From: Limnomonas spitsbergensis
Taxonomy: Eukaryota; Chlorophyta; Chlorophyceae; Chlamydomonadales
Direction: 5' to 3'
Assembly (NCBI GenBank): GCA_037349105.1
Contig: JAYJMM010000117.1
Coordinates: 3,162,001 to 3,226,000 of the forward strand
DNA length: 64,000 nt
Of the stretch, positions 306 to 62,055 are shown piece by piece. Made by a program: the position numbers and the translations under genes. Position 1 is the first letter of the stretch, and every line of letters begins with the position of its first letter. Below the pieces are notes generated by a model. It saw only the letters and a program-made list of their open reading frames with translations. It did not search any database and was not told the origin of the DNA.

Positions 306-3300
306 CTCCAGGACAGGGCCATGTTGTGGAATGCGCCGCAGGCAATAGCGGCAATTCCAGTAGCATCACGAACCTGATCACACGAGGGGGGAGTGTGTGT
401 GGGGGGGGGTGAGGGAGGCGGGTGAGGGAGGTTAGGGAGGTTAGGGAGGGAGGGGGGGAGGGAGGGTGGGGAGGGAGGTGGGAGAGGGAGGTAGGGGAGG
501 TGAGGGAGCGAGGGGGGGAGGGAGGGGGGGAGGGAGGGAGGGGAGGGAGGGGGGAGAGGGAGGTGAGGGAGGTGAGGGAGCGAGGGGGAAGGGAGGGGGT
601 GAGGGAGGGTGGGGAGGGAGGGGGGAGAGGGAGGTGAGGGAGGTGAGGGAGCGAGGGGGGGAGGGAGGGGGGGAGCGGGGGGGGGAGGGAGGGCTGGGAG
701 GGGGGGGAGGGAGGGCTGGGAGCGAGGGGGGGAGGGAGGGAGGGAGGGCTGGGAGGGGGGGAGGGAGGGCTGGGAGCGAGGGGGGGAGGGAGGGAGGGGG
801 GGAGGGAGGGCTGGGAGGGAGGGAGGGGAGGGAGGGCTGGGAGGGAGGGGGGGAGGGAGGGCTGGGAGCGAGGGAGGGAGGGCTGGGAGGGAGGGAGGGG
901 AGGGAGGGCTGTGAGGGAGGGGGGGGAGGGAGGGGGGGATGGAGGGAGGGGAGGGAGGGCTGTGAGGGAGGGGGGGGAGGGAGGGGGGGAGGGAGGGCGG
1001 GGAGCGAGGGGGGGAGGGAGGGAGGGGGGGAGGGAGGGCTGGGAGGGCTGGGAGGGAGGGGGGGAGGGAGGGCTGGGAGCGAGGGAGGGAGGGCTGGGAG
1101 GGAGGGAGGGGAGGGAGGGCTGTGAGGGAGGGGGGGGAGGTAGGGGGGGATGGAGGGAGGGGAGGGAGGGCTGTGAGGGAGGGGGGGGAGGGAGGGGGGG
1201 AGGGAGGGCTGGGAGGGAAGGGGGGGAGGGAGGGGGGGAGGGAGGGCTGGGAGGGAGGGAGGGGAGGGAGGGCTGGGAGGGAGGGGGGGAGGGAGGGGAG
1301 GGAGGGAGGGGGGGAGGGAGGGCTGGGAGCGAGGGGGGGAGGGAGGGAGGGGGGGAGGGAGGGCTGGGAGGGAGGGAGGGGAGGGAGGGCTGGGAGGGAG
1401 GGGGGAGGGAGGGCTGGGAGGGAGGGGGGGAGGGAGGGCTGGGAGGGAGGGGGGGAAGGGAGGGCTGGGAGGGAGGGGGGGGAGGGAGGGGGTAGCCAGG
1501 GTTCAAGGGAGGGCGAGCAGGTGGACAGGGGGAGCCAAAGTGTTCGTACAGGCAGGTTGTGGGAGAGGGGGAGGAGAGAGGTGGGGCTGGTTTATGGGCG
1601 TAGTACAAGTGGGGGGAAGGCAAACCGTAAATTCCGGGATCTGCAATTCAGGGCTGGCAGATCAGCTTCAGGGCATTCACGACCAGCTCTTCCTCCCTCC
1701 TCTTCCCTCCCCCTCTACCTGGCAGACTTGACGTCTCAAAAAATAAATACACTCGTGGGGTAAAGATAATACAGGAGCAAACTAGGGCAGCGACAGAAAC
1801 CTGAAATCCCGGGATCCAAATAACGAGGGCAGCTGCAGACCATTTAGCTTCCTGTAGCTTCCATCTAGCTGCTCTGCTCTGCTGAGCTGGCAACAGACAT
1901 TTTCACTGTGCGCACACACCTCCCAACAGCTCAGCCATGCATTGATCACATTCCTGGTCTCGGGCTCCATCTGACCTTCAGGGAGAAGTCCACACTTCAC
2001 AGCCCCCCCTCATATCCACACTTCACCGCTCTCAGTGTCACACCTGTCACACTAAATGATATCAGGTTCTGTTCGATATTGACAGAGAAGTCTCCCCACA
2101 GCTCTCACCATGTCCACACATCATCCATCCCAGTCACACATTGGTCACACTCACTGTATTCAGTTTTTCTCAATCTTAAGAGTCCCCCCACGGCTCCCCA
2201 CACGTCCACACTTCGACCGTATCAGTCACACATTGGTCACACTTACTGGTCTTGGGTTCCGCTCCACCTTGAGGAGGAAATTACCCCACGGCTCTCCCCA
2301 CGTCCAAACTTCGCCGTCTCAGTCACACATTGGTCACACTTACTGGTCTTGGGTTCCGCTCGACCTTGAGGGAGAAATCACCCCACGGCTCCCCCCACGT
2401 CCAAACTTCGCCCGTCTTAGTCACACATTGGTCACACTTACTGGTCTTGGGTTCCGCTCGACCTTGAGGGAGAAATCACCCCACGGCTCCCCCCACGTCC
2501 ACACTTCACCCGACTCAGTCAGGGCCAGGGAGTGCATTCCTCCACAGGCCACACTCTTAATCTGCATGAGGGTGAAAGTGCAGGGTTCAGGGTTTAGGGT
2601 TAAGGGTAGAAAAAGGAATTTAATCTGCATGAGGGTGAAAGTGCAGGGTTCAGGGTTTAGAGTCAAGGGTTTGAAAAGGCTCTTAATCTGCATGAGGGTG
2701 GAAGTGCATGGTTCAGGGTTTAGGGTCAAGGGGGTTTAGGGTTAAAGAAGGCTTTCAATCTGCATGAGGTTGAAAGGTCAGGGTCAAAGATTCAGGGCTC
2801 AAACAAAAGACGCATACCGTACCTGCACTATGAGAGAATGTGCATAACAAGAAATTAACGCAAGGGTTTGCATGCAGGGTCTGAATGTTAAAATTCAAAT
2901 TATGAATTCAAATTTCAAAACAGAGTGGGTGTTGAATATAGCGGTCACTGAGGATATGATCATGCTAGGCTTATTAACAAAACAAAGCTACTTCGACACC
3001 CAAATGGGGGTAAATGAGCTTCCTACAAGCGGCAGCCGCATGGCTGACTTCTCGCATGGTCCCTTAGTACCCACCCGCAGCTGCGGCATGCGAGTGCCAC
3101 ATAATTGCTTTCGCACCCACCCACCCTGGCATTCAAGTGTCACACAGTTACTTCCGCACTGCTTCCCCCTCATCTGCGCCATACGTGTGCCACACAGTTA
3201 CTTTCACACTACTTCCGCCTCATCTGCGGCATGCATGGCATGGGCGACAGTACGTCCCTCATGCTCGGGTTTCCACCGCCATGCAGGCACTCATTTCCTC

Positions 3301-6300
3301 CCCATGAACAGGCCGCATGGCTGATTTATCGCATGGCCCCTAAAACCCACCCTCAGCTGCGGCACGCATGGCATGGGCGACAGCACGTCCCTCATGCTGG
3401 GGTTGCCACCGCATTGCAGGTACTCATTCCCTCCCCATGCAAACAGACGGCCGTCCTCCGAAAGCGCCAAGCAGTGCCAGCCATTCACAGCAACCTGAGG
3501 GAGGGGGAGGAACAGAGGGGGTCACGGAGGTGTGAGGTCGTGGAACGGCGTGGTGGTTTTTATGGTAGTTACACTATAATGTATAAATCCTGCAGGGTTA
3601 CATTCCTAGGCCTCGTGGCTTTACAGGAGTTTCACAGGCATGTGTTACCTCTCACAGGGTTATGCTTCCAGGCCTGGTGGATTCCCGGGAGGTACATATG
3701 TGTAACTCCTGCAGGGTTACACTCCTGGTCATGGTGGCTTCACAGATGTTTCACAGGCATGTGTTACCTCTCACAGGGTTATGCTTCCAGGCCTGGTGGA
3801 TTCCTGGGAGGTACATATATGTAACTCCTGCAGGGTGAAGTTCCGGGGCCTGGTGGCGTGACGGACCTTACGCAGACATGTGTAACTCCTGCAGGGTGAA
3901 GTTCCGGGGCCTGGTGGCGTGACGGACCTTACGCAGACATGTGTAACTCCTGGAGGTCACAATCTAGGGCCTGGTGGCGTACGGACCTTACGCAGACATG
4001 TGTAACTCCTGGAGGTTACAATATAGGGCCTGGTGGCGTGACAGACCTTACGCAGACATGTGTAACTCCTGGAGGTTACAATCTAGGGCCTGGTGGCGTG
4101 ACGGACCTTACGCAGACATGTGTAACTCCTGGAGGTCACAATCTAGGGCCTGGTGGCGTGACGGACCTTACGCAGACATGTGTAACTCCTGGAGGTTACA
4201 ATCTAGGGCCTGGTGGCGTGACGGACCTTACGCAGACATGTGTAGCTCCTGGAGGTTACAATCTAGGGCCTGGTGGCGTGACGGACCTTGCGCAGACATT
4301 TGGAAATCCTGGAGGTTACAATCTAGGGTTTGGTGGCTTAACAGGACTTGCACACACATGTGTAACTCCTGAGAGTTACAATCTAGGGTTTGGTGGCTTA
4401 ACAGGACTTGCACACACATGTGTAACTCCTGAGAGTTACAATCTAGGGTTTGGTGGCTTAACAGGACTTGCACACACATGTGTAATTCCTGAGAGTTACA
4501 ATCTAGGGTTTGGTGGCTTAACAGGACTTGCACACACATGTGTAACTCCTGAGAGTTACAATCTAGGGTTTGGTGGCTTAACAGGACTTGCACACACATG
4601 TGTAACTCCTGGAGGTTACAATCTAGGGTTTGGTGCATTTACATGACTTACACAGGCATTTGTAACTCCTGCAGGGTGACGCTCACGGGCCTGATGGTGT
4701 TTCAAGCCTGGCTCACGCAAGCAGGGCTACACTACCGGATATGTTGGCTTGCTGAGAGTTACATGCATAACTAAAATGCATAAATCCTGTAAGATTTTGC
4801 CTCTGGCCTGGCGGTTATACGGGAGTTATTCGATTCAAGTGGGCATGCTCTCAGATACCGGTGCAACACCCCAGTTTCGATTTCAGAACTTCCGCACTCA
4901 GCCTTGTATTCCATTTAATGATTGGATTCAAAAGAAAATACCGATGCATCAAAGCAATATTTAATTCGATGGCAGACCTGCCACACTCAGCCTTGTATTT
5001 GATTGGATTCAAAAGAGCATGCCAGCAAACACCGATGCAGCAAAGCACCATTGAAGTTTGATTGCAGACCCACCATGCTTAGCGCAGGATACCATTGCAT
5101 TCAAAAAACATGCCAGCAAACTCCGATGCAGCATGGCTTCATTGAAGTGAAGTTGCAGACCTACCAAGCTTAGTAAAGTATTCCATTGATTTAAAAAAGA
5201 GCGTGCCAGTAAACACCGGTGCATCATGGCATCCTTGAAGTTTGATCGCAGACCGACCATGCTTAGCGCTGGATTCCATTCCATTCTAGAGAGCGAGCCA
5301 GCAAACTCTGATGCAGCATGGGCTTCATGGCATCATCCAAGTGTAGTTGCAGACCTACCACGCTCAGCGCTGGATTCCATTCCATTCAAAACCCCACGGC
5401 AAACTATCACTTGGGGGTGCCTATAAAATTGTATAAAGCAAAACAGTCCTTTCCGTAACAGATCAGACCTTACCCTGACCCGTCAAACCCTACCTACAAT
5501 TTCCCCGCTTTTCACCTGCTTGATGCGAACGCCTTGGAGGGCGGCAATTCTCCTCGGCTTCCGCTCCCGGGCCTGATGGCCGTGGCCCAGGGTGGCGCGC
5601 TCGTTCCAGCCCCACGACCAAACCTGGACAACACGTCAAGCATTCGGGGTTCAAAGTCTAAGCCCTGAGGTTCCATGATAACTGGTTCAGGGCTTCAGAT
5701 CTTGGCATTGGGATTCTAGGATACGGTCACCCTATTTCACATGCTCGGGTCCATGACTCCATGTCCGACTCATCAACAGATTGAAGGGAAGCAAGAGTAG
5801 GAAAAAAATAAAGGGAGCGCAGCATGGTTCATCTTGTGAGAGTGCGTTGGCTATAAATAAACAATACGCCCTGAGGCGTGGCTACAATTCACCAGCATCA
5901 CGACCGACCGGCCGGGTGCAACAACAGAATCTTTACCACGGCCTCAGCATCCCTAGCACGACCTGAGCATCCTAGCACGACCTGAGCATCCCTACCACGG
6001 CCTGAGACTGTGCCATGGCCTCTGCATCCCTAGCCCTGAGTGTCCTTAGCAAGGCCTGAGTCCTATCGCCTAGCCCTGCAGTTCCGCCGCCGCTCACCCC
6101 GCCTTCCGAGTCAATAGCCAGCGTGTTCCTAGAGCCCGCGACGATGGGAGCATGTCCAAACGAGCGGCCAGAGAACCTCATACCCAGCATGCTGTCCACC
6201 ACCTGCATGGGCCAGGCAGGTAAGCACATGGGCAGGCAGACATGATCAGGCCACAGCCTCATACCCAGCATGCTGTCCATCACCTGCATGGGCCAGGTAG

Positions 6301-7858
6301 GGGGTCAGGAAGGTCAGGAACCGGATCAGGCAGACGGCCAGGCAGGTAAGCACATGGGCAGGCAGACATGATCAGGCCACAGCCTCATACCCAGCATGCT
6401 GTCCACCACCTGCATGGGCCAGGTAGGGGGTCAGGAAGGTCAGGAACCGGATCAGGCAGACGGCCAGGCAGGTAAGCACATGGGCAGGCAGACATGATCA
6501 GGCCACAGCCTCATACCCAGCATGCTGTCCACCACCTGCATGGGCCAGGTAGGGGGTCAGGACGGTCAGGAACCGGATCAGGCAGACGGCCAGGCAGGTA
6601 AGCACATGGGCAGGCAGACATGATCAGGCCACAGCCTCATACCCAGCATGCTGTCCACCACCTGCATGGGCCAGGTAGGGGGTCAGGACGGTCAGGAACC
6701 GGATCAGGCAGACGGCCAGGCAGGTAAGCAAATGGGCAGGCAGACATGATCAGGCCACAGCCTCATACCCAGCATGCTGTCCACCACCTGCATGGGCCAG
6801 GCAGGGGGTCAGGACGGTCAGGAACCGGGTCAGGCAGACGGCCAGGCAGGTAAGCACATGGGCAGGCAGACATGATCAGGCCACAGCCTCATACCCAGCA
6901 TGCTGTCCACCACCTGCATGGGCCAGGTAGGGGGTCAGGACGGTCAGGAACCGGATCAGGCAGACGGCCAGGCAGGTAAGCACATGGGCAGGCAGACATG
7001 ATCAGGCCTCAGCCTCATACCCAGCATGCTGTCCACCACCTGCATGGGCCAGGTAGGGGGTCAGGAAGGTCAGGAACCGGATCAGGCAGACGGCCAGGCA
7101 GGTAAGCACATGGGCAGGCAGACATGATCAGGCCACAGCCTCATACCCAGCATGCTGCCCACCACCTGCAGGGCCAGGTAGGGGGTCAGGTACAGGACCA
7201 GGCAGGCAAGCACATGTATAGGCAGATGTGCGACCATAAAGCATGCTGTGCAGCACCTGCAGGGCCAGGCAAGAGTCAGGAACCGGATCAGGCAGACGGC
7301 CAGGCAGGTATGCACATGGTCAGGCAGATGTACTCAGGCCACAGAGCCTCACACCAAGCATGCTGTCTGCCTGCATGGCCACTACCTGCATGGCCATGCA
7401 GGGGGGTTAGGTACAGGATCAGGCAGGCAAGCACGTGGGTAGGCAGGTGTGCGGCCATGAAGCATGCTGTGCAAGACCTGCATCATCAGGCAAGGGTCAG
7501 ACAGGCATGCACATGGACAGACTGGCAGGCACATAGACAGGTAGGCCAGCACATAAACAGGCAGGCCAGCACATGGACAGGCAGGCCAGCACATGGACAG
7601 GCACACGTGATCAGGTTAAGCAGTCTCATACCCAGCATGCTCGTACCCAGTGAGCGCCCGTACAGGCACATTTTTCTCCATGCCTGAGTTGCATCATTGT
7701 CAGAAGTGCACCTCCCATGTATCCCCATCCACATGCTTAAGTTCCTGCCCTCACACATACACTTTCTGACCGGGCACTGACCTTGGGTGTGTGCACGTTC
7801 TGCTGTGTGGCGTCACAGCCGAGCTGGGAGTCCTCATTAACGCCCCAGCCAAACAAGA
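291..7858 (-). CDS. RCC1-repeat beta-propeller protein, partial (six exons resolved)
   Basis: RCC1 repeats form seven-bladed propellers that act as guanine-exchange or protein-binding modules; the specific partner here cannot be told. Minus-strand exons, 5' to 3': 7782-7858 (LFGWGVNEDSQLG), 6098-6202 (VAGSRNTLAIDSEGG), 5516-5623 (VWSWGWNERATLGHG), 3351-3494 (NGWHCLALSEDGRLFAWGGN), 2442-2561 (VACGGMHSLALTESGEVWTW), 291-373 (IACGAFHNMALSWSGNVY). All five internal joins keep phase 0 and each exon has AG/GT borders, giving about 211 codons with the alternating 'GxxHxxAL..G.v..WG.N..gqLG' pattern. The exon at 7858 needs a preceding exon ending in phase 1, and the exon ending at 291 has a GTGAGA donor, so the gene continues beyond the left edge. 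Introns are packed with tandem repeats, several containing copies of the splice junctions. Family call is confident; exact orthologue is not. Confidence 0.86.
385..1495. repeat. G-rich (GGGAGGG / GGGCTGGGAGGG) low-complexity array in RCC1 intron
   Basis: About 1.1 kb of almost pure G/A on the plus strand built from AGGGAGGG and GGGCTGGGAGGGAGGG variants. On the gene's sense (minus) strand it is a polypyrimidine tract inside the intron between exons 2442-2561 and 291-373. Runs of three or more G occur every few bases, so G-quadruplex formation is likely. Long open frames here on both strands are a by-product of composition. Confidence 0.9.
1496..2136. other. Non-repetitive part of RCC1 intron
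   Basis: Intronic sequence between the G-rich array and the 97-bp repeats. No conserved coding motif, RNA gene or mobile-element end was recognised. Confidence 0.5.
2137..2535. repeat. About 97-bp tandem repeats carrying the RCC1 exon 3' end and donor
   Basis: Copies start near 2137, 2229, 2326 and 2424 (spacings 92, 97, 98). Each holds CACACATTGGTCACACTTAC, the complement of the GTAAGT donor, followed by sequence matching the 3' end of RCC1 exon 2442-2561. Only the copy ending at 2442 is joined to an intact exon. Confidence 0.85.
2556..2790. repeat. About 62-72 bp repeats carrying the acceptor of the same RCC1 exon
   Basis: Four copies of AATCTGCATGAGGGTGAAAG followed by GGGTTTAGGGT-like sequence. 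The first overlaps the acceptor of exon 2442-2561 (CTGCAT is the complement of ATGCAG). This exon is therefore flanked on both sides by arrays copied from its own borders. The units also carry TTAGGG-like text. Confidence 0.75.
3010..3350. repeat. Donor-side partial copies of RCC1 exon 3351-3494
   Basis: Segments near 3045-3090, 3165-3200 and 3220-3310 repeat the 3' part of the exon and its ACCCAC (donor complement) context; 3225-3300 is a nearly full copy of 3365-3440 with several substitutions. Confidence 0.7.
3580..4690. repeat. 60-bp satellite in RCC1 intron
   Basis: About 14 copies of a 60-bp unit containing ACATGTGTAACTCCTG and TTACAATCTAGGG between about 3840 and 4660, preceded by two or three longer (about 120 bp) diverged units from 3580. 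Two subfamilies are visible: 'GGGCCTGGTGGCGTGACGG' up to about 4290 and 'GGGTTTGGTGGCTTAACAGG' after it. Unit length is a multiple of three, so all frames stay open; not read as coding. Confidence 0.9.
4840..5400. repeat. Degenerate 110-120 bp repeats
   Basis: Four or five diverged copies of a unit with TGCAGACC(C/T)ACCA(C/T)GCTTAG, ATTCCATT and GCCAGCAAAC, within the RCC1 intron 3495-5515. Confidence 0.75.
6186..7650. repeat. 126-bp tandem repeats carrying the acceptor of RCC1 exon 6098-6202
   Basis: Units recur every 126 bp (e.g. 6267, 6393, 6519), with about eight good copies to about 7165 and four diverged ones to about 7640. Each contains the complement of GCAG|GTGGTGGACAGCATGC, i.e. 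the polypyrimidine/AG acceptor and the first 20-27 nt of the exon. The functional copy is the last one, at 6202. Confidence 0.92.
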
Positions 7859-12300: not shown

Positions 12301-15300
12301 TCGTTAAGAAAGTCACCAAATCATGTAGAGGACACTGAATCGTCTTCTCACTCTTGTCCCACCAGCATGGCCTGCGCATTATTGGCATTGGTTTTTCGAA
12401 TGCCAATGCTGGCTCATCAGGTGCAATGACCGCGGCGTCTGTCTGGAGCCAGGGACGTGTGCGTGCGGCAAGGGGTACTCCGATGCAAGCTGCGGGGCGG
12501 GCTCCGACATCTGCCTGAACAAGTGAGTAAATTAATCAAATATGTGAATAATCAGCATAGCTTGAACAGTTACAGGTAGAAAGAAAGACGACCCTGAAGA
12601 TGACCCTGAAAACGACCCTGAAGACGACCCTGAAAATGACCCTGAAAACGACCCTGAAGACAACCCTGAAGACGACTGTGCCACGTAGGTTTGTGCGGGT
12701 TAAGGAGACAGCGGGACATAGGCTGTGGCAGTGGGTATTAGTTGCTGTTCAACAGATGCTGCAGATGCAAGCACTTGAGCAGAATATGGGAGGGGCTGAA
12801 TTATGCTGCAGCAATAGCAACAAGGAGGGGCTGAATTATGCTGCAGCAATAGCAACAAGGAGGGGCTGAATTATGCTGCAGCAATAGCAACAAGGAGGGG
12901 CTGAATTGTGCTGCAGCAATAGCAACAAGGAGGGGCTGAATTATGCTGCAGCAATAGCAACAAGGAGGGGCTGAATTGTGCTGCAGCAATAGCAACAAGG
13001 AGGGGCTGAATTATGCTGCAGCAATAGCAACAAGGAGGGGCTGAATTATGCTGCAGCAATAGCAACAAGGAGGGGCTGAATTGTGCTGCAGCAATAGCAA
13101 CAAGGAGGGGCTGAATTGTGCTGCAGCAATAGCAACAAGGAGGGGCTGAATTATGCTGCAGCAATAGCAACAAGGAGGGGCTGAATTATGCTGCAGCAAT
13201 AGCAACAAGGAGGGGCTGAATTGTGCTGCAGCAATAGCAACAAGGAGGGGCTGAATTGTGCTGCAGCAATAGCAACAAGGAGGGGCTGAATTGTGCTGCA
13301 GCAATAGCAACAAGGAGGGGCTGAATTATGCTGCAGCAATAGCAACAAGGAGGGGCTGAATTGTGCTGCAGCAATAGCAACAAGGAGGGGCTGAATTATG
13401 CTGCAGCAATAGCAACAAGGAGGGGCTGAATTATGCTGCAGCAATAGCAACAAGGAGGGGCTGAATTATGCTGCAGCAATAGCAACAAGGAGGGGCTGAA
13501 TTATGCTCGGCCAGGGCATGTATGTGGGTTAAGGGTTCTGTTCTCATAACCCTACCCCCCCAACTCTGTATTCAGTACCAGCTGTGCCTAGCTGCAATAA
13601 AAAAGAAAGAAAGCTACGCCCCGTGGGAGGCGTGAGAGTTAAGGAAACAACGCAGCCTGGGCCAAAGCCACGTCCGCGCCGTTACCGTTAGCTGCAATAG
13701 TTGATGTAGACATTTCAGGTCCACATCTGCTGCATTTCTGATGGCTGTTTTTACCTATCTGTGCCTCTCAGCTGCAGCGGAGTAGGTCGAGGGACTCAGA
13801 CTTAATCTGTTGTGTCTGATAGCTGTGTCATTGTTTGTGCCTCTCAGCTGCAGCGGAGTGGGTGAGTGCCTGGCCGGATTCTGCAAGTGCCCCCGGGGCA
13901 GGTGGGGCATGGACTGCTCCAGAACCAAGGCCTACGCACCGGATCCACAGGACGCCAGGGAGGTCAACGACACCATGTACAGCAGGCAAGTGCGGTACAT
14001 GGCTGTAGTGATGTACAGCAGCCAAGTGCGGTACAGGGCTGTAATGATGTACAACAGACAAGTGCGGTACAGGGCTGTAGTGATGTACATCAGACAAGTG
14101 CGGTACAGGGCTGTAGTGATGTACAGCAGACAAGTGCGGCACAGGGCTGTTGTGATACATCTAGGGGGTGGCAATCTAATTACTTGTCCTCGCATACAAA
14201 TGACATAATCCTTGCATAAACATTACATTACCGTACTTTAATTTTAGGAAAAGTTGCCTGAATGTCACGAGTTTGGGGTTGTGGGTCCGTCTTGATGAGA
14301 ACATTCAGAACATGCAGCTAACATGCCCCATTTAAAAGAGCTAGATCCTAAAGCCAACAAGAACACGATTTAATTCATGCAGTGCGCGGATTTGCGGACC
14401 TGAACTTTAAGAAGTTAACCAGTTCAGTCGAACCAAGTCTACCGTGACTACCAGTGAGGCTACTGGTATAAGGTATAAGGTAGCATCCGGGGAAGTCGGG
14501 CTTGCAGGAGCTTTTGAGACTTTCTGGGGCTTTTGCGGGTCACCTGCTGCGCTGCACAATTGCCTAAATGCACCTTGAAAGAAGCAGCTGGGTTGCACGG
14601 CGTCAACTTCTGCCCGCAGCTTTTGCACTGAAGGTAAAAGCACGGTGCGCCTGGCTAGAGACTCCTTGCCCATCACGCAATTTGTTGCTTAGGAGGAACT
14701 CCAGACTGTTTACTGTACAGCGTTGGATGCAATCGCAAGCGCATCTCTTAGAAATAGCTGACAGTAGCTAAAAAACCGTATTTATGCGATTTCACGTCGA
14801 TTTTCGGAATTTTTTCGAATTTATGCAATTGATATAAATGAGCAGGTCTCGTTCAAAAGTTATAATATAATTCATATAATGTTCAGTTTATATAAATTTA
14901 CATTAAATGTGCCAACCCCTAGATATACCGCAGACAAGTGCGGTACATGTTATTAGTGATGTACAGCAGACATGTGCGGTACAGGGCTGTAATGATGTAG
15001 CTTAAACCTGCCCTGGACGCTGAAGCCTGTTTGTGCTCACTCTTAGCCCTCAACCCTGCCCTGAATGCTAAAACCTTGTTTGTACACCAGCACGGGTCTG
15101 GGTATCCTCGGCTGCCACCCCCTCCTATTGCTTCCCTTCATACAACTGAAACAATCCTAATAACATGTGAAGGACGTCCTATCTTACCGGTACCTATATT
15201 ACCGGTACCTATATTACTGGTACCTATATTACTGGTACCTATATTACTGGTACCTATATTACTGGTACCTATATTACTGGTACCTATATTACTGGTACCT

Positions 15301-32870: not shown

Positions 32871-32876
32871 TTCCAA

Positions 32877-38430: not shown

Positions 38431-38452
38431 CGTATTTGCAAGATGAAAGAGG

Positions 38453-38468: not shown

Positions 38469-38498
38469 AGAATCAATCAGCATGAAGTCGGAACCAGA

Positions 38499-43231: not shown

Positions 43232-43645
43232 GTCGTGACAATGATATACAGCAACGGGCTTGTCTGCAGTGCCGCACTAGCCAGCCGGCGCCACAACATG
43301 CGGGGACACCACTAAACCAACTTCAGAAAGCTGACTTGCAGGATTGTGAACCCTTCAGTTGTGCCCAGCAATTATTACGCTCGGCGATTACAGGACGCGG
43401 AACACACAAAAGTGACTTGCTTGGCCTCTAGTACGACACCTTGATGTGTCATCTGGTGATCGCCAACATGGTGACCAAGAGGAACTTTGACGTCTGCCTG
43501 TTGGCGCCAGCTGCTCTTCGGGAAGCATCCCTACATGGTTTGAATTTGAAATTGGGGTCGCTGTGCCCAGTCTCACACCCTCCGTGTTGAGGGGGCCTCT
43601 GGGCCGTGCAAGTCTTATGGTTCCTAGTGTGCGAGAGCTGTGTCT

Positions 43646-45290: not shown

Positions 45291-45436
45291 GGCTGACGGG
45301 ACTGGGTGCAAGTGGGGCCCTCTTACCTGCTGGCTGCATATCATCAAGGTTTGGCATGGCTGGGGTGGGCAGGAATCACGACCACCGTTAGGCCGTATGC
45401 CATCCGGACAATAATCTGTTTATAAGTTTCCGGGAA

Positions 45437-47268
45437 ATGGCTTTCGGGAGTCGGATTTGTGAGGAGGCTCTCAATAGGTGCAGCAGGATGGTGGACCCAC
45501 TGGACCGCATGGCTCAGCGTCAGTTTTGCCTGCAGGTGAGCACAGATGAACACACGACATAGTACACGACAGTACGACACCTGCCTCCCCCATTCTCCTC
45601 ACACATGCATCTTAGTGACGGCCTGCCTTTGGCCCAGCATGACATGAAAGTTCGGGGGTGGAAAATTAAAGAAATTAGGGAGGCGTGCATGGAGGAGTAA
45701 CTCCTCAGCACACCCATCTCACTTTCCCTGTGCCTGTAGTTTACTGAAGGCCTGTCTCTGAGGTTTGGGTTAGGAGAGGTTAGGGTGTACCCACCATTAC
45801 AAATTGCCGCCCCACAACTGCTGGTTCAGCTACTGGTTGCCCTCTTCCCAGTTTGAACGTTGAAGCTGGTTGAACGTACACAATTTCGGCATATCAGCCC
45901 TTGATATCCCTCCTTTGTTATCCTGAAGACACGCGTCGAGGTTAGATTTCTTTCTCCCTTATCCGCCTGTACTCAACCCTTCTCGCTTCATAGAGAAGAA
46001 ATATGCCTCCGCTTTTTGCTCTGTCTGATTTGACCCCCCCACACGACCCCTCCGTCAGAATTTGCGATCTTTCGGCGACGTGGAAACAACAGCAGCACAT
46101 GTATGGCTGCTCTCTTACTTCCATGCTTGACCTTTTCTTCTGATTCAACCTCTCTCCCCATTTCCTTGCTGGCTTAGGTGTTTTACTCAGAAGGCTAACT
46201 GGTTATTCAACGAGATTGATATTTTGGGATGTGAGGAGAAATCACTACGGGTCGCGCTGAAGGCGAAGGGATTAAGGGTCGATGAAATTGGGGAGGTGGA
46301 AGCTCATCGTCAATTACGTGCCTGCATTCTTTGGCTTCTCAAGGAAGGGCGCGCATTATGTTCAACTTCTACATGCACAGGTTGGTCTGCTTCATTTGCT
46401 TGCCCTTTTCCTTTTTCCGAATGCCCCCGATGTAATCTGTCGAAGCTATGTCAATAGTTTGGTGGGCACGACGGTGTAAACTCGTTGGTACTTGTGCAGG
46501 AGAATCAAGCGAAAGTACGCCATCATGCACATGCAGGCTGCACGTCGGTCGGAAGATGCCAGCCTATCAGCCATGCGCTACTCAGCCATGCTGCGGCATG
46601 TCAACCAGCCCTAGTACAGCACCCCCAGATTGCATCAAGGAAGGAAAAGCACAAATTTCTTGTGATACCGACACAGGTTGGTCTACTTTATGTGCTTACC
46701 CTGTTTTTGTATCTGAACGGCTTTAACCTGTCAACGCTCTTTCGTCAGTTTGGTGGGCTCAACGGTGTATCTATGTATGTGTTTGTGCAGGAGAATCAAA
46801 TGAAAGTCCGCCCTTATGCAGCTTGCATCTGGGCCAAGAGAAGCCTGCCTATCAGGCATGTGCTCCTCAGCCACGCAGCGTCAGGTCATCCACTGAAAGC
46901 CTGATGGACCGCAGCACTGATGCAGAGGGCTTGGATGCCCCCATGCTGTCTCTCTCGTCATCAACCTCTGTGTCTTGCTCGCCCCTGCTCAGCAAGGTCG
47001 ATGCAGGTGCGTCAGGATGTGGGTTTTGTGTCTTGCCTGATCCTGCTCTGCTGGCTTGACCTGCCTCTCAACAATTCGTCCCCTGCCTAATTTGAAATGG
47101 CCAACTACTTTCCACTTCCACGCTTTCACAGGCAAAGGACAGGATATGGCTGCCCAGCGACAGGCACCACTTGTAGCTGCCTTCACGCATGCTGAGAGGG
47201 AGGGTCTTCATAGGAGGCTGACAGGCCAGGGAAGGCCTCGCCTAGTAGAACTGGAGCAGTGTGTTTAA
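45437..47268 (+). CDS. Gene X, copy B
   Basis: Exons 45437-45535, 46191-46380, 46500-46676, 46791-47006 and 47132-47268, all offset by 14924 from copy A. The encoded protein is identical in every exon checked and splice sites are unchanged. Unlike the accompanying GT47 fragment it is intact, so it is either functional or too recent to have decayed. The same caution about the internal frame applies as for copy A. Confidence 0.45.
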
Positions 47269-47800
47269 TGGTGGTGGTAAAGTTCCCAACGCACCTGCAG
47301 AACATGCAACCAAGCCCTCCCTGGCGGCATCCATCCAGTTTGTTTAGTAGCCTTGTCTTCAGCTTAAACGCAGGCTTGTCTTGCTTGCCCTGGGTGTGGC
47401 CAGCCCTGCTGCCTGTGCCTCAGGCTGGTGCAGGTTTAGTGTGATTGAGCCTAGGGCTGTGGGGCGACCAATAAGGATGTCTGGATCCCACTAAAATAAA
47501 CCATGCTCTCATCACACAACTAGCTGAGTTCTTCACTTGGTGTCCAAAGGGTCATCTTTATGTCAGGTTCCGTACTATCATATTCCAGGCATCGTACATA
47601 TTGTTGTACTTCTTTCTTTTGCAAGCCTAGGAGGTAGCCCCTGGAGTGGGAGCCCCTTTTGAGGTAGGCTCACTCTGACGTAGCACATTTGTTTCCTCCT
47701 AGGATCCATGCCACTTGGCATTCCTCTTTCATTCTTCCTGGCCAGTGGCAGACTCAATCTTGCAGGTTGAAATCCCCCTTAAACATATGATGTATTCCAA

Positions 47801-48034
47801 GACTTGTTGGGAGATCTTTGCCGGTATTAGAGGCAGGTAGCTTGATTTGCACACTGATTTGCAGCCTCATGCCGGCAAGACTTGTTGGGAGATCTTTGCT
47901 GGTATTAGAGGCAGGTAGCTTAATTTGCACTCTGATTTGCAGCCTCATGCTGGCAAGACTTGGTAGGAGATCTTTGCAGGTATTAGAGGCAGGTAGCTTG
48001 ATTTGCACTCTGATTTGCAGCCTCATGCTGGCAA
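47801..48034. repeat. 78-bp tandem repeat, copy B
   Basis: Counterpart of 32877-33110; the third unit has CTTGGTAGGAGATCTTTGCA instead of the common form. Confidence 0.85.
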
Positions 48035-48364
48035 CTTAACTCTGTACCTGTTCACAATGTTTTTTCAAGTACCGGTACATAAGGTTGGCGATGTTTTTGA
48101 TATTTACGATAGCTTATGGTCTTGTTTCTGGCAAGGCAATCATTTGCTAGCTTGAAGCAACATCTGTGGGCGCGTTCCTTTGAAGTCGTCACTCTTCCTC
48201 GCCCAACGCGCCCCTCCGGACCCTGAAACCCTCTAACGCGTTAGAATCTAACGCTGCCCCTTACAACACTCACCTGTATTATTATTGTATTCCCTCCAAT
48301 GTATGATGATGTATACTGTTTGGCATGCGGTGGACACTTCAATTCCTGCGTGCCCATGCCAAGT

Positions 48365-49693
48365 CAATGACACAACACCTCTGGGCCCTGCTCAAGAAGG
48401 CTCGACCGCGTGGGCGCCCAACTGTCCCGTTGGGAGAATAGGAAAGGAACTTAAGGTTAGAGGGAAAGAAGGAGGATAACACAAAGGACATAGATACCCC
48501 CCCTCCCCCCCCGCCCAAGGAAAAAACAGCCCGAAGTATCCCTGCCCCTCTCAAGCCTATTCCCCAAGAAGGCAAAGAAAAGCAACGAACTAGGCCTCAA
48601 CAATGCCTGCTGCGTCCTCAACAAGATTCAGAGCCTCCCACCCAAGCCTGGCCCGGTGCAGCTGTTGAAAGTCTGTGGCGTCCTCCGGGGACCTGTCCAA
48701 CCTCTCTACCTAATTCTCTCCGTCACGCTAGGGCACTGGAAGCAGACGTGCAGCGCATCTTCCATCTCCAAACCGAAACCACCCTGCTATCACCAAAGAA
48801 GATCAGATCATCGTCAGCCGCCACGTCAACAGCGTCCATCCGCGGCTGCAGCAGTGGCCGTGAGGGTGAGTCATCGCGCGCCTCCTACCGGCATTGGGGC
48901 ACCTGCAGTGGGTCCGTTCGCCGCCGCCGCCGCCCCGAGATCATGGTGCCATCTCCTCCCACCATCCTTGCGGGGAAGACTTCCGCTGCCTCCCACCCAC
49001 GTCATGGAGTATTCCGTGCGACCGCTTCCTCGCAAAGCCCGCCACCATCTCCGCAGCTTCTGCACGCTCAAGGCTGCCAGTGTCCGTCGCTGGATGGCTA
49101 CAGCCGACAAGCAATACGTCCTGCCAGCTGGATTGAAAGTGCAAGGAAGCTACCCAATGGCGTGGCTGCTCTACAGCACCTCCGCTAGCCGCCATCTCGG
49201 CCCCGTGGCAGCGAGAGGCGCTGTAGCATTGCCACCGCTTGCAGCTACGACTACCGTACGGCAGCGGGCACACCTGCTATCACCACAGCAGTGGTGGCGG
49301 TGGCGGGCAGGCCACCATCGCGCCGTTGCCGCCGCTTGCTCCTCAGTGCCAAAAGCTTGGCTCTGCTGCTGTTGTGAGGTGCCAGCTGCTGGTCCCTCTC
49401 CGCCAAGGTCTCATGCATTACCTTGCTGCTGGGGACTGCGGATGGGGGCAGGTCCGCCAGACGGACCAGCAGGGCTGCTCGATGTGCCTGCATCTGTGCC
49501 CCATCTCGATCCCTCAGCGCACCCCGTACCTGCATCAACTTACACACCTCCTCCTCCTCTCCCTCAAATTCCTCCCCCGCTGCAGTCTCCGGCCTCGCCA
49601 GGCACCACCGCTGCTGCCTCCTCGACCAGCTCTGTGACCCCACATTTTGCTTTGTTCCATGCCAAGTGTAGGGCTGTGACTTTTCCACAGCAT
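48365..49693 (-). mobile_element. Degraded LINE, copy B counterpart
   Basis: Counterpart of 33442-34770 with the same remnants and frameshift, so the LINE inserted and decayed before the segmental duplication. Confidence 0.55.
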
Positions 49694-49795
49694 TTAGGGG
49701 TCACGCCCACTGCCAATAGTGGTGGTTTGTTGGTAGCAAGACAAGGAGGACGGCAGTTTATCTTGTTCCATATCCTAGTTTATTTTGTGACTTGA

Positions 49796-50818
49796 AGTAC
49801 TTGCGGGCACCAGCCCCATGTACCAGATATGATGCTTCGTAAGCAACACTTAAAATCGCGATCTGAACTACCACTTTCTAGGAACCACTAGTAATTAAAT
49901 CTTCCACTAGGTTACAAGCAGTTTAAAATCCTCCAAGCAGTTACATGCAGCCAATACCGCCCACTTGGTTACCGCTTACCAGCAGTGAATCTTCCGTTTA
50001 GTTCCTAGGAGTCACGATCATCCAGTTCGTGATAAGCGACTTCTCCTGAATACAACACGTGCTTACAATCGGTAGCAGTTGAGGTTGTAGTTTTCAGTAA
50101 ATAGGTCAGCATCAGGAAACAAGCCAATTGAGCTAACATTATAAGGTGTCTTGCGAGATCTAAAATTGGACAGGCTCGCATGCCTGGCATTGGACAAGCG
50201 GATACGAAATGCAGACTAAATAAAGAAATGACATAACCTGAGAAGACCAGCAGACAAACTGCACCTCATTTCTCCCCCCATAGCTTTTAATACCATGTCA
50301 CTGCTGGAGGACCCCCACCTCACCTGCATGTCTAAAAACGCCTGATGCAAGTCCACTGCCTGGCAATTTAAAACATCAAAAAAATACTTGTCAAAACAAA
50401 GTACGGCATTACACATTCATTGGCCCTTCTGATCAGATTCATGAAAAATATTCCCGACTGAATGGGTCTCAGAAAGCCGCCGCCGGTTAGAGCATGAATG
50501 CTACGGCACTCATCACGTCATCAGAAGGCAGAAAAAACAGGTGGCTAAGGAAACGAATCCCACGATACCGGTAAATGTACAAACATTAAAAGCTTTGCGT
50601 GATCTTGGCAGATCATATGGACATACATCAGTGCTTGCACCTGCTATATCCTAGTAATTGCTGAATGCTATCGAACAGTAAGTTGCCATGACTCTGACTA
50701 GACGCTCAAGTCCAGGAATGAGCAGGGCGTATGTATATATTTTTTCATTTATGAATAAATGCTTTTCGGCGCGTTGGACCTCAGTTTTTGTCACCGCCAC
50801 ATCAAAAATGTGACTCCG
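49796..50818. other. Right end of segmental copy B
   Basis: Counterpart of 34873-35971 with several indels. No gene resolved. Confidence 0.4.
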
Positions 50819-56284: not shown

Positions 56285-59200
56285 CTACCCCAGCGCTGTC
56301 CCTGTAGAGCTGCACTGTACAGCTGTACCGCCTGCCCCCCCGGCGTAGTCCAGAGTTGTGGCATCCCCAGACGTACCGCCTGATGTCCTACCAAATGTAA
56401 CACCAGATGCACTGTTAGAAGCAACGCCCAGTGTGGGCCAAGCGTGAATGACAGCATTCTCTCTGTCTGAGGGGTCAACCGCTTGGTCAAGGCCTCGACC
56501 AGAGCTCGTGCTCTCCCCCATGTCCGCTCCTGCCGTCCCCGCCCCCGTCCCCGCTCCCGTCTCTGCCCCTGCTCCCGCCCCTGTCCCACCTCTCTGTCCC
56601 ATCTCTATCCCCGATCTCGTCTCTGTCCCCCCTCTCGCTCCCATCCCCGCTCCCACTCCGGCTCTCATCCTGTCTGCAGCGGCTGTCCTCCCAGATACTT
56701 TTTCCCGGGCGCGGCGCTCCTCAGAGGGAACCGTGGCAACGGAGCCAAAGCTTGTAAGCCCAGAAACCTGGGAAGACGAGCTCGGCTTCGGAGCATCCTT
56801 GCTGCCGGGGCCTGCTTGGGGAAACAAGCTCCGTTTTGGGGCAGGGGTGGCTTCGCACATGCCTTGCGAGCCCTGGCTAATCGCTGGTATACCGGTAAAC
56901 AAAGTACATGGCATTTTAGTATAGGGTGTACCCTTTCCCATGTGTATGAAGCCACCAGACTGACACTGCTACAAAGAGCACCACCAGATCCTGCACCAGA
57001 TCCAACACCACCAGATCCTGCACCAGATCCAACACCACCAGATCCTGCACCAGATCCTACACCACCAGATCCTGCTCCAAGGTGCACCACCAGATCATGG
57101 GACGGCAGGGCACCCTAACCCCTGAACCCTAAGCACCACCAGATCATGGGACAGCAGGGCACCCTAAACCCTTTACCCTAAGCAACACCAGATCATGGGA
57201 CGGCAGGGCACATGCCTTGCGAGTTTTAGCTATTGGCCGGCACATACCGGTCACACGGAATTGTAGAATATCGGTCTACCGGTACCCAACCCACCAGATT
57301 CTGACATTGCATCCTGGGACATTGCAAGAGATCATGGGGCGGCTTTGCTCATGCTGTGCGAGCCCTGGCCATGAGTGTCAAGGCACCAAGACCTCCCACC
57401 TGCCCTCGAGCCTTTAACAGGCATCATCTGCTTGCACCAGATCTGCATCAGATCTGTACTGGATGTACATCATATCTGCACCAGAGATAATCTGGATACG
57501 CATCGGATCTTATCTGCGACAGATCTGCGTCAGATCTACTTCAGCTACTACCTTCCCAGGCTGGACAAACTAGAGGGAACAAGCTGTTCCGATCTCCCAG
57601 GTTGGCGGACCCCTTGTGATCCATACTCCCCACTCTCCATGCTCCCCACTCTCCGTACTCCCCACTCTCCATACTCTCCATTCCACACCTGATATAGACT
57701 TCCCCTCCCCACTCTCCATGCCACACCTGATACAGGCTGCCCCGCCTCCAAGCCCTCTGATATTAACGTCGAGGCGCCACTGATGGCTTGGCTGATGATG
57801 AAGGTGCTGCTAACAGAGGCGCCGCTGGTGGCGGTGCTGCCCTGTACCGCGGCCAGCTGCTGCTTGAGAGCCCGCACCTCAATCTGAAGCTCGTCCACTC
57901 GGCTGGCCAGTTGCTGGCGCTGAAACAGGCAGGCAGGCAGGTTAGCTATTGAATCTGATGCAAGCAGGCAGGCAGGCAGGCAGGAAAGCCATTGATTCTG
58001 AAGAAAACAGGCAAGAACGTTACCCATTTAATCTTAAGTAAGCGGGCAGTCAGGTTGGCTGCTGCTACTGCAAAGAGCAGGCAGGCAGGACGGGCAGGGC
58101 GGGCAGGCATGCAGGCGGGCAGGCATGCAGGCAGATGAGGCTTCAGCATTACCCCATCACATTTTCCCGTTGTCTTACCCGGTGTCTGTCTGCGTTGAAT
58201 CTGAGGATGGCGGGCAGGGGCAACCTGGCCGTGACCTCGGTCATGAAGTTGCGAAAAGAAGCCTCCAGCAGTTGTCCCCACTCGGGAAGGAAATGGGCCT
58301 GGACGTGGAGGCAGTCAGTCAGCCAGTTGATAGTCCGACAATTAGTCAGTCAGTTCGTCAGTCCAGTAGGCAGATGTGGTCTAGGGCAGTGGGGTCCAGA
58401 CTGACCCCAGGGGTAATGGGCATGGCAATGAAGGCAGGCAGACAGGTGCAACTGAGGCTCTGTCTAGTCCCAGTTCAGGAGGAAATTGACCTGACGATGG
58501 TGCTAGTTAGTTAGGCAGGCAGGCAGGCAAGCAGGCAGGCAGGAGGTACATTTTAATTGCCTGCCTGTCTCCAGTCTGGAAGGGAATGGGCCTGGCGGTG
58601 GAGGTAGGCCGACAGTCAGACAGTCAGACAGTCAGTCAGTCAATCAGGCAGGCACATTTTAGGATCTCGACTGTCTCCACTCTTGAGAAGAAATGGGCCT
58701 GGCGGTAGAGGCAGGCGGGCAGGCATGCGGTGCAGTTAAGGGTCGCTCCACATTTGAAAAGCCAGGTCAGCCTAATAATGTTCCTTCAGCACCTGCCACA
58801 GACGTCGTATCCTTTAAGATTCACTTCCGCCTTGGTTTAGGGTTTAGGGTTTGGCAAAGCCAACGCCGTGGTTAAAAAACCAACATGTTTTAGTGTGATT
58901 GCCAGCATCTCCCCAACAGCAGGACCTCTAGCCGCATCCAGAATTCGAATCACGCCCTCTCTGGATACCAGTGCTGTCACACAATTAAAGAAACAGCATA
59001 CATCCACTTTTTGACTTAACGACCAGTGCTCCACTTTTTTTACATGTTTCATGTCAATGATATCCCATGAAAGAATTGGAATATCCCCAAACAAGAACGG
59101 TGACACCTTTTCATAGTTTCCTATCCCTCTCGTCTGGATCCGATCCCTTCACCATGAAGGAGGAAATTCTCCTAAGGTATGGAATGGAGGTCGGGGGTAC

Positions 59201-62055
59201 GGTGCTGCTGATTCACACTTTCTCAATATTTTTTGCACGACTCACGTCACCATGAAGGCTGGATCTCTCCAAGAAAGGCTCTCGAATGAAGTTGAGCGTG
59301 CACCAGATCCATACTTTATAGATCTTGCCTCCAAGTTCCATCCCATCACCTGGAAGGCTGGATCTCTCTCAGGCTCTAAAATGAATTTGAGTGCGCACCA
59401 GATCCATGCTTTCTAGATCGTTCCTCCCAATTTCATCCCGATATTTCCTCCCAATTCTATCACATCACATGGAAGGCTGGATCTCTCCAAGGCTCTGGAA
59501 TGAAGTTGAATGCGCACCAGATCCATACTTTCCAGATCTTGCCTCCCAATTCCATCCCATTACCTGGAAGGCTGGATCTCTCCAAGGCTCTGGAATATAG
59601 GTGAGCGCACACCAGAGTCACACTTTCTAAATCTCACTTTATAGATCTTGCCTCCCAATTCCATCCCATTACCTGGAAGGCCGGATCTTTCCAAGGCTCT
59701 GGAATATAGGTGAGCGCGCACCAGGGCCGCCAAAGGGCCGCCTCAGGGCCCAGCAGCAGGTCAGAGCCGGCATGCCGGAAGAAGTCCTCCACCTGGACAA
59801 TTTCGGGTTCAGAACCCAGGAATTGAGGTTCAAGGTTAACCCCTAAACTATAGGCCCAGCATCAGGTCAAAGCCAGCTTGAAAAAACAAGTCCCAGACCT
59901 TGAGGGTTCAAATTTCAGGGTTTAGACTAGGGGGCAGTCCTCGAACTGGTGTGCTAGGTTAAAGTGTTTGGGCATACGAGTGTAAACCAGGAAAAGGTAA
60001 TCGACGTGGCCGCGCACAGGGCAAGAAAATCCAGTGTACGCGGATTATCATCGTGAGTACGGCTGCGTCATGGAGAACATACATTTTTTGATTTTAATTA
60101 CAACGTGGGGGCGACCGCTGAGCAGCCGTTACCCCTACCGCTAGATCTGGATATCCAGATCCAGAGCACACATCACTTGATTCACTTCCAAGTGGCCTGC
60201 TCTTCACTGCATGCGCATGGCCTCCTTTTTTCACGTTCCTCTCATTATAGCCCCTCCTTCCCCCTTCCCGTCCGTTCTCCTCCTTTTCTCACGTTCCTCT
60301 CATAATGGCCCCTCCTACCCCGTTCTTGTCTGTTTCCCCTCCCTCAATGAGCCACTCCTCCTTACACCTTCGATAACATCCCTCCACTAGACTGCTGCAC
60401 CTCAGCCTGTCACATCTCAATAACATCCCTCCACCAGGCTGCTGCTCCTCACTCCATCACATCTCGATTACTTCCCCCAGGAGGCTTCTCATCTTCACCC
60501 TGTGGGCTGCTTCTCACCCTGTCACGTCTGTTTCTCCGTACAGCCGTTACCAGGAGGCACTTGATGAGAGACTGCTCAAATTTGCGAATGGGCGCGTCGT
60601 ACCGCGAGTCCAGGTGGACGTACAGCCTGTATACAGCCGGGTGATAAAGGGGCCATGGCGTTATGGTCTGCCACACCTCCTGCCACACTTTCTGCCGGCC
60701 GCACCAGCTGCCACAACTCCTTCCACACTTCCTGCCATACCTGATACCACAGCTTGTGCCAAACACTGCGGTACACCTCCGGCTACACGGCGGTACACCT
60801 CCGGCTACACGGCGGTACACCTCCGGCCACACTGCAGTACACCTCCGGCCACACCTTATGCCACACCATATGCCACTGTAGGTTGTCTGGCATGCCATAT
60901 TGCTTTTGTTGATACAACGACGCTAAACGACAGAGACATCAGGCGCCAGATGCCTCAGTAGCTTAGCGTCGCTACATCAACAAACAGTCATCCCCTGGAG
61001 GGTATATTTCATCATCCAGGCGCAGCGGTGCACGCTTCCGGAGTGGGAGATTTGTGTTCTCACTCAAATGCTATGACACTAATTACGCATTGCTGCTGAA
61101 ATCCCCTCTGCCGGAACTTATGAGGCATTTCTGCTGAAACCCAAGTAAAAATGTCCCAGTCCTCATAAGACAAGCTCCTGGGCCGGGTCTCCTAGCCCTG
61201 GGTGCATCCGTTACCCACAGCTAAGCTCCTGCAGGTGTCGTGGCGTCCACGCACCCACCCAGGAGCCTTTTTGAAAGGATTACCGGTAGGCATTGCAAGA
61301 ATGTAGAACAGAGGAAGCAGAGTCTAAGCAAGAAAGAAAAAGAGCGTACCGTAACTTTAAAACAACCATGTCCTTTTTCAGCAGTGAGAGGTACCGCTGC
61401 CAGCAAGATGCCCTGTGGAGCCATGCGGCATGACTACTTACTGCATGAAGCACCACGCACCTGGTCTTAAAAAACTCCCATGTACTGGAGCAGCTGAGTG
61501 CCATGCAGAGCCATGTGGCATGAAGCACCACACACTTTGCATTCAAAACTCCCATGTACTGGAGCAGCTAAGTGCCATGCAGAGCCATGCGGCATGAAGC
61601 ACCACACACCTGGTATTCAAAAACTCCCATGTACTGGAGCAGCTGAGTGCCATGCAGAGCCATGCGGCATGAAGCACCACACACCTGGTATTCAAAAACT
61701 CCCATGTACTGGAGCAGCTGAGTGCCATGCAGAGCCATGCGGCATGAAGCACCACACACCTGGTATTTAAAAACCCCCATGTACTGGAGCAGCTGAGTGC
61801 CATGCAGAGCTATGCGGCATGAAGCACCACACACCTGGTATTCAAAAACTCCATGTACTGGAGCAGGTCTTCGAAGCGCAGGTCAGGGATGAGCTGGCCG
61901 AAGACAAGATCTGCCATGCGAGACGACTGGTAGCCACATCCCTGGTCAGAGCTCAGCTCAGAATTGAGAGAATCAAGGGTGCGTGTGAAGCCTCTGAACA
62001 AGAGGAACTCTTTGACTAAGGCATCCACGTAGGGAAGGGAGTCGAGGGAGGTCAT
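56285..62055 (-). CDS. WDR91: WDR91-like protein, N-terminal half
   Basis: WDR91 acts with its partner WDR81 on endosomes, limiting PI3-kinase activity and engaging Rab7. Exons: 61835-62055 (ATG 62055), 60518-60626, 59673-59792, 58179-58298, 57727-57919 and about 56285-56883, phases 2,0,0,0,1. Exon 1 reads VKEFLLFRGFTRTLDSLNSE, the LisH/CTLH-like start. Exon 2, LYVHLDSRYDAPIRKFEQSL and VTAVRRNRRD, exon 3, VEDFFRHAGSDLL and WRPWCALTYIPEP, and exon 4, PEWGQLLEASFRNFMTEV and RLPLPAILRFNAD, follow the WDR91 order closely. Exon 5 is a coiled coil (RVDELQIEVRALKQQLAAV). Exon 6 is a Ser/Gly/Ala linker whose donor is unclear. The C-terminal WD40 repeats were not found between 50.8 and 56.3 kb; they may be missed or absent. 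Confidence 0.85.
56960..57120 (+). repeat. CACCAGATCCTGCACCAGATC repeats
   Basis: Units of 12-24 bp (ACCACCAGATCCTGCACCAG) in WDR91 intron 5, followed by two longer units (about 57085-57205) with GGGACGGCAGGGCACCCTAA. Confidence 0.85.
57205..57390 (-). repeat. Acceptor-side copies of WDR91 exon 6
   Basis: CATGCCTTGCGAG...TATTGGCCGGCACATACCGG (57211-57250) and CATGCTGTGCGAGCCCTGGC (57350-57370) resemble the proposed exon 6 border at 56860-56900 (CATGCCTTGCGAGCCCTGGC...GGTATACCGG). Confidence 0.6.
57600..57745 (-). repeat. Donor-side copies of WDR91 exon 5
   Basis: CCACACCTGATA(C/T)A(G/-)ACT recurs at about 57683 and 57720 around the donor, with CCCCACTCTCCA(T/C)(A/G)CT units between. Confidence 0.65.
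57925..58130 (-). repeat. GGCAGGCAG low-complexity repeats
   Basis: CAGGCAGGCAGGCAGG runs and GAAAACAGGCAAGAACGTTA-type units in WDR91 intron 4; the last forms the exon 5 acceptor. Confidence 0.75.
58430..58720 (-). repeat. Acceptor-side copies of WDR91 exon 4
   Basis: GGAAATGGGCCTGGACGTGG, which spans the exon 4 acceptor at 58298, recurs as GAAATTGACCTGACGATGG (58480), GGAATGGGCCTGGCGGTGG (58578) and GAAATGGGCCTGGCGGTAG (58690), separated by AGTCAGTCAG and GGCAGGCAGG fillers. Confidence 0.85.
58834..58853 (+). repeat. Interstitial TTTAGGG run
   Basis: GGTTTAGGGTTTAGGGTTTG in WDR91 intron 3. Confidence 0.7.
58855..59235. other. Unique part of WDR91 intron 3
   Basis: No exon, RNA gene or repeat recognised. 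Confidence 0.5.
59240..59700 (-). repeat. About 100-bp repeats carrying the exon 3 donor of WDR91
   Basis: Five copies of CATCACCTGGAAGGCTGGAT CTCTCCAAGGCTCTGGAATGAA-type sequence; each contains the complement of CTTCC(A)G|GTAATG and the last about 30 nt of exon 3. GATCTTGCCTCCCAATTCCA links them. Confidence 0.9.
59793..60340. other. Unique part of WDR91 intron 2
   Basis: No feature recognised apart from two CTCCTTTT(T/C)TCACGTTCCTC repeats (about 60220 and 60275). Confidence 0.5.
60360..60540 (-). repeat. Donor-side copies of WDR91 exon 2
   Basis: GCTGC(T/A)(G/C)CTCACC-TGTCAC units at about 60390, 60430 and 60505 copy the exon 2 donor region at 60511-60530 (TTCTCACCCTGTCACGTCTG). Confidence 0.7.
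60740..60870. repeat. GGTACACCTCCGGCTACACGGC repeats
   Basis: Four to five 21-bp units in WDR91 intron 1, plus ACACTTCCTGCCATACC-like units before them. Confidence 0.8.
61440..61860 (-). repeat. 75-bp tandem repeats carrying the exon 1 donor of WDR91
   Basis: TGTACTGGAGCAG occurs at 61491, 61555, 61630, 61705, 61780 and 61854 (spacings 64, 75, 75, 75, 74). Each unit carries the complement of CAGTACATGG(G)AGTTTTTGAA TACCAG|GTGTGTGG, the last about 35 nt of exon 1 and its donor. Confidence 0.92.

Follow-up and report, generated by a model that had tools for sequence, protein, structure and literature searches.

The introns of three genes in a 64,000-nucleotide stretch of the Limnomonas spitsbergensis genome (hereafter the window, G000:C117:3162001-3226000, in an assembly of 260,226,709 bases and 124 contigs) contain many local tandem copies, and at 19 of the 46 modelled exon–intron junctions such a copy runs across the splice site. 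Local tandem duplication probably accumulates in these introns blind to exon borders, surviving where the exon-proximal splice site works. The junction is best regarded as tolerated rather than targeted, a random stretch of intron being copied with whatever exon adjoins it. The initial annotation of the window described a process distinct from a mobile family and sustained intron growth, both of which have stood, and the exon-adjoining splice site is the one that keeps the frame; the annotation's further proposal, that the junction drives or attracts growth, has not stood.

Exons were placed by codon bias, family models and eye. The minus-strand RCC1 gene contains repeats that score above the Pfam cut-off, and its exon borders are backed by a paralog on contig C89, in which six of the eight shared exons have equal length, with differences of 36 and 3 bases in the remaining two. 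The coordinates initially given for this gene (6098-6202, 2442 and 3351) agree to the base with the independently built borders; the acceptor of its exon A is uncertain in the model. The plus-strand gene shows EGF-like and exostosin (GT47) stretches, each below the Pfam cut-off (24.5 bits versus 33.4 for the latter). Its model is without exon 9, and the exon numbering of the initial annotation fits if exon 9 sits between 24231 and 27032. At the start of two GT47 introns (window 13986 and 19452), GC is apparent in place of GT. The minus-strand gene at 57.7-62.1 kb is presumably WDR91, a name given from the translated sequence; a Pfam search of this gene gave zero matches. The names ELP3, SMC2, EXO1 and lipoyl synthase are likewise assumed from translations of gene models. 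Rfam and tRNA scans of the window found nothing, and a PDB sequence search with one frame of 27-36.9 kb gave no match.

Junction-spanning copies were sought with queries of 60 exon and 30 intron bases against 3 kb of intron-side flank, with the self-diagonal masked, and an alignment had to cross the junction with at least 12 exon and at least 6 intron bases. The same queries against the flanks of other junctions served as the null (1504 pairings, 99th percentile 92, maximum 108). Copies above the 1% null were detected at 10 of 24 donors and 9 of 22 acceptors. They include all 12 junctions at which the initial annotation had reported an intronic copy across the splice site (scores 114 to 441), the clearest being RCC1 2442, where the unit comprises approximately 70 exon and 27 intron bases. 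Seven junctions pass beyond these 12. The RCC1 291 donor, GT47 13848 acceptor, WDR91 59792 acceptor and WDR91 57727 donor are among them, as is the RCC1 2561 acceptor, which passes with the minimum of 12 exon bases only; the GT47 24128 and WDR91 57919 acceptors are low-complexity and are not relied on. A copied stop codon with the GT47 3' end, spotted by eye, scored 80, below the threshold, and was dropped. Donors and acceptors do not differ significantly (17/33 and 13/33 in the three window genes and the C89 paralog; p 0.46). The features are collected in Table 1.

Table 1. Exons, spanning copies and arrays in the window (offsets and periods in bases)
Feature	Position	Strand	Remarks
RCC1 exon F and one intronic copy of the donor edge at 291, 127 bases further, 25 exon bases	291..373	-	
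Array of ~98 bp across the donor of RCC1 exon E (exon 2442-2561)	1940..2521	-	Copy identity to exon, outward: 0.97, 0.90, 0.71, 0.74, 0.81
Telomere-like 63-bp array at the RCC1 exon E acceptor, ~8-12 bases into the exon	2556..2732	-	
RCC1 exon D (3351-3494) and intronic donor-end copy, offset 133, ~70 exon bases, 0.90 identity	3200..3494	-	GT lost in the copy
RCC1 exon B (6098-6202) with a 126-bp array filling intron A/B (6203-7781)	6098..7781	-	Unit: exon B acceptor and ~27 exon bases
RCC1 exon A, acceptor uncertain, no spanning copy	7782..7858	-	
GT47 exon 5 (13848-13985): single acceptor copy (offset 74) and 36-bp array at the GC donor	13750..14156	+	Donor array: ~11 exon bases per unit; AC instead of GC in intronic copies
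GT47 exon 6 (18599-18741) and two diverged donor-end copies, offsets 188 and 271	18599..19045	+	
GT47 exon 8 (24128-24231) and diverged donor-end copies, best offset 255	24128..24550	+	
Array of 119 bp, 11 full copies, unit of acceptor and ~18-22 bases of GT47 exon 10 (27032-27128)	25702..27128	+	
GT47 exon 11 (27732-27872) and donor-side copy, offset 143, 46 exon bases at 0.89	27732..28160	+	
GT47 exon 12 (28590-28683) and upstream acceptor copies, best offset 289	28280..28683	+	
WDR91-like exon 5 and donor copy, offset 38	57680..57919	-	
WDR91-like exon 4 (58179-58298) and upstream acceptor copies, 26 exon bases	58179..58730	-	
WDR91-like exon 3 (59673-59792): ~109-bp donor array and one acceptor copy (offset 106)	59321..59910	-	Donor array: 58 exon bases, five copies, identity falling outward from 0.90 to 0.64
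WDR91-like exon 1 (61835-62055) and 75-bp donor array (61443-61866), 34 exon bases per unit	61443..62055	-	
Tandem segmental duplication of 14.6 kb, units 24102-38743 and 38744-50818, doubling GT47 exons 8-14	24102..50818	+	

The arrays are mostly unrelated to one another in sequence, as initially stated. Only 10 of 435 array pairs in the window are similar, each for an ordinary reason: they are neighbouring arrays, the two copies of the segmental duplication, or G-rich or telomere-like sequence. A mobile family was rejected on this count, and no single sequence family present at many loci, as for introners, was found among the window arrays. Telomere-like TTTAGGG/TTCAGGG motifs were observed within intron arrays at window 2556-2732 and 57084-57211 and at approximately 7250-7440 of locus L021.

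The RCC1 paralog on C89 (loci L027 and L028) has exons C to J in the same order as the C117 gene, with 53-82% DNA identity between corresponding exons, the 53% belonging to exon F, which differs in length. Since dS is approximately 1.6 (near saturation) and dN/dS is 0.13 (211 codons of six exons), the two genes are, as judged from their coding sequences, an old pair under constraint. In both genes, copies span the exon E acceptor and the donors of exons D, E, G and I, among other junctions. In the exon E unit, the intron part continues GTAAGTGTGACC in C117 and GTGAGAATGAGG in C89. All 41 exon-edge copies in the introns of the paralogs are nearer to their own exon than to that of the other paralog, a result toward which the search is biased by starting from the own exon. 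This suggests that both genes made copies after their split. The own-exon identities of 0.64-1.00 similarly indicate copies not as old as the dS 1.6 split, unless refreshed by conversion. The sustained growth proposed by the initial annotation thus recurs independently in the two paralogs, as seen in these own-exon copies and in the unrelated intron parts. Among the paired junctions, 6 are spanned in both genes, 0 in C117 only, 4 in C89 only and 6 in neither; this sharing (p 0.034) is a hint that certain junctions are hit more readily than a blind process would lead one to expect.

Of 69 junctions scanned, 31 have at least one spanning copy, giving 95 copies altogether. Among 22 arrays with at least two copies, 16 have a nearest copy that resembles the exon more closely than the farthest one does (2 ties), and in arrays with at least three copies the rank correlation between identity and distance was negative in 11 of 13 (mean -0.42), the other 2 opposing the trend. 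Splice dinucleotides are kept in 80 of the 95 copies, slightly more than the 0.74 expected from identity, and there is therefore no sign that selection erases decoy splice sites. When 63 of the 80 kept decoys were checked for frame, only 4 (3 of 43 donors, 1 of 20 acceptors) would give an open frame. Three of these belong to one 84-bp array at the exon I donor of the C89 gene (L027 8430-8880), where the units are in frame and use of a distal donor would add peptide repeats. As each of the remaining 59 decoys would bring in a frameshift or a stop, the exon-adjoining splice site must, by this reasoning, normally be the one that is used, in keeping with the initial proposal that one working junction remains after duplication. 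The copies span a single junction and thus lack the two splice sites and preserved frame of a tandem exon duplication.

The segmental duplication that doubles GT47 exons 8-14 bears on recent change in arrays. In unit 1, the acceptor array of exon 10 contains 11 full copies, against 3 in unit 2, so that its length has changed since the duplication. Identity between the units ranges from 91.5% to 99.7%, climbing along the length in a manner that would fit a later refreshing of one part. The unit 2 copy of exon 8 contains an in-frame stop. Approximately 1.3 kb at window 43655-44946 is found in unit 2 only, and part of it matches 54164-54364 inverted.

The frequency of spanned junctions does not exceed that of local copies elsewhere in the same introns. 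When the search target was the intron alone and the background points came from that intron, 30 of 66 junctions are spanned in the four genes, against 34.3 expected: 7/18 (9.3) in RCC1 C117, 10/16 (9.6) in RCC1 C89, 8/24 (11.1) in GT47 and 5/8 (4.3) in WDR91, with expectations in brackets. In the window genes, a local copy was found for 70% of random intron points when weighted by length and 56% when averaged over introns, compared with 41% of junctions; for exon-interior points, the value was 6% of 394. The coverage profile was computed with a fixed threshold of 110 (also applied to the C4 coverage and the RCC1-family locus scans), since the segmental duplication had distorted the 50-base null (99th percentile 250). 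Local-copy coverage rises from 0.34 in the first 50 intron bases to 0.88 at depths greater than 1 kb, a rise due in part to the fact that such deep points exist in long introns only, and on the exon side it falls from 0.30 in the outer 15 bases to 0.10 at 30-45 bases; the change across the exon–intron border is smooth. The largest arrays (15-bp x 220, 25-bp x 57, 35-bp x 46 and 19-bp x 96) lie in introns and contain no visible exon sequence. The initial annotation had named overlap with junctions at no more than the chance level as the outcome that would speak against it, and this was the outcome in a sample of approximately 0.34 Mb out of 260 Mb. The claim that arrays prefer junctions is consequently abandoned for this sample, in which the same-intron background and the coverage profile rule out the junction as a hotspot.

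The pattern is intense in some genes and nearly absent at the junctions of others. In an independent 100 kb picked without looking (C4:3.0-3.1 Mb, eight gene models), only 2 of 84 junctions are spanned, against 9.8 expected among the 76 with background (Poisson p 0.003), and four further loci have 4 of 30 spanned against 7.1 expected; all these junctions have automatic borders, some of them weak, and one C4 gap has no fitting splice-site pair. Together, the 12 gene models of C4 and the four loci have 6 of 114 junctions spanned. Local copies are nevertheless denser in introns than in other DNA, both in C4, where coverage is 0.195 in gaps between coding segments, 0.077 in the whole region and 0.059 outside gene spans, and in the window, where arrays occupy 53.7% of intron bases of the three genes (15595/29065), 6.6% of 29.7-57.7 kb and none of 62.1-64 kb, with the proviso that DNA outside gene models may contain unseen genes and mobile elements. 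The RCC1 family varies likewise, since among five loci L027 has the full pattern, L023 a moderate one, and L024 and L025 little. In the fifth, L026, a 4-kb array with a 20-bp unit (2792-6823) fills an intron but ends short of both junctions. Local-repeat coverage of 94-100% was observed in L002, L006, L009 and L010, which are the first 10 kb of C4, C50 and C100, plus C1:10001-20000.

Intron A/B is present in one RCC1 paralog only. The C117 gene has this 1579-bp intron, while in the C89 gene exons A and B form a single open frame (L028 ~9379-9648); the difference may reflect a gain in C117 or a loss in C89. Approximately four fifths of the intron (1240/1579 bases, in 19 pieces) align to the acceptor context of exon B. 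Its donor and acceptor contexts are unlike each other (alignment score 34 only), and its birth by an AGGT-type duplication is therefore unsupported and was rejected. It is conceivable, albeit doubtful, that exon ends act as permanent seeds which, kept by selection, are copied into the adjoining intron, where the copies drift outward and decay, steadily replacing the intron sequence; intron A/B would then have been born likewise from a duplication of the exon B edge, the resulting array being spliced out.

In the account that we favour, segments of mostly ~40-180 bp would be tandemly duplicated inside introns without regard to exon borders. Slippage or template switching may by chance duplicate a segment carrying an exon end together with its splice site. 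The exon-proximal splice site would stay in use, with which the reading frames are consistent, and the new copy would join and lengthen the intron. Copies multiply into arrays in which the farthest is usually the most diverged, as if newer ones arise beside the exon, and the paralogous genes have done so separately, at the same junctions. Selection would remove exon-internal copies and, in other genes, most junction-crossing copies. The junction deficit in C4 (2 versus 9.8 expected) means that a blind process requires such selection as an extra assumption.

Junction-driven growth, as originally proposed, holds that duplication of a junction makes duplication tolerable or likely, with introns growing chiefly from their ends. 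It accords with the spanning of at least half of the junctions in both C89 and WDR91, with the same junctions being hit in both RCC1 paralogs and with exon-near copies tending to be the youngest, but it is unlikely given that the four genes pooled lie at or below the same-intron background and C4 well below it, that coverage increases away from junctions and that the largest arrays lack visible exon sequence. The arrays could instead be ancestral to both paralogs and be kept similar to their own exons by gene conversion or unequal exchange, with no new border-crossing duplications. The intron parts of the units at the exon E and D donors are, however, unrelated between the paralogs, BLASTN matches between the genes are confined to exons and exon-edge copies (low-complexity stretches aside), and single extra copies such as that at the RCC1 exon F donor require no homogenisation. 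Concerted evolution is thus rather improbable, even though arrays occupy the same junctions in both genes and, at the exon E donor, have nearly equal periods (97-98 and 95) and include roughly the same portion of the exon.

It is very unlikely that the copies are functional, serving alternative splicing or adding peptide repeats: each has one splice site and a partial exon, and most would disrupt the frame, notwithstanding the retention of GT or AG in most of them and the three consecutive 84-bp units of C89 exon I, which are in frame and free of stops. An origin in wrong exon borders or assembly artefacts is hardly credible. The manner in which exons were placed, the missing GT47 exon 9 and the unsure exon A acceptor speak for it, whereas the paralog exons agree in border and length, the RCC1 repeats exceed the Pfam cut-off, and copies diverged by 10-30% are impossible for collapse or stutter errors. 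Duplication blind to exon borders remains the preferred explanation.

Intron lengthening without mobile elements is poorly documented, and here its material is visible as dated exon-end copies within introns. Their recurrence in two paralogs with conserved exons makes the rate, direction and fate of duplications measurable in one genome. The observations open the question of why some genes accept copies at about half of their junctions and others almost never, offer a test case for how splicing picks the right site among several near-identical ones, and correct the tempting notion of the splice junction as a target.

The arrays resemble intronic minisatellites in that they lie head-to-tail in introns, change in copy number and have units of 15-220 bp. 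They differ in that exon-edge sequence occurs in the units at the named junctions, which are therefore not confined to noncoding DNA but include a coding exon end and splice site at many separate junctions. A survey concerned with exon duplication and new introns reportedly describes duplications within genes as common and able to cross exon borders; in the present case, arrays of exon edges fill introns.

In the open-licence literature searched, which lacks most subscription journals, no report of gene-wide intron filling by exon-edge arrays was met; this is weak evidence of absence. The papers used for comparison are PMC3443670, PMC2891723, PMC3488318, PMC10675990 and PMC4974935. In the Drosophila cases, duplication of an exonic AGGT segment gave a new intron (PMC2891723). 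That process likewise consists of local tandem duplication involving splice-site sequence, altering gene structure but leaving the coding sequence intact, whereas here existing introns are lengthened by exon-edge copies, as seen at 30 of the 66 junctions in four genes. In the potato RdRp gene, one duplication across an intron–exon boundary gave one new intron (PMC4974935). The duplicated stretch crosses such a boundary in both systems, and the L. spitsbergensis genes differ in the many junctions affected, the multi-copy arrays and the independent recurrence in paralogs. Introner elements (PMC9860276) represent insertions of one sequence family at many sites; they share with the present arrays one recurring process with a large effect on intron content, whereas the units described here are local and mostly unrelated.
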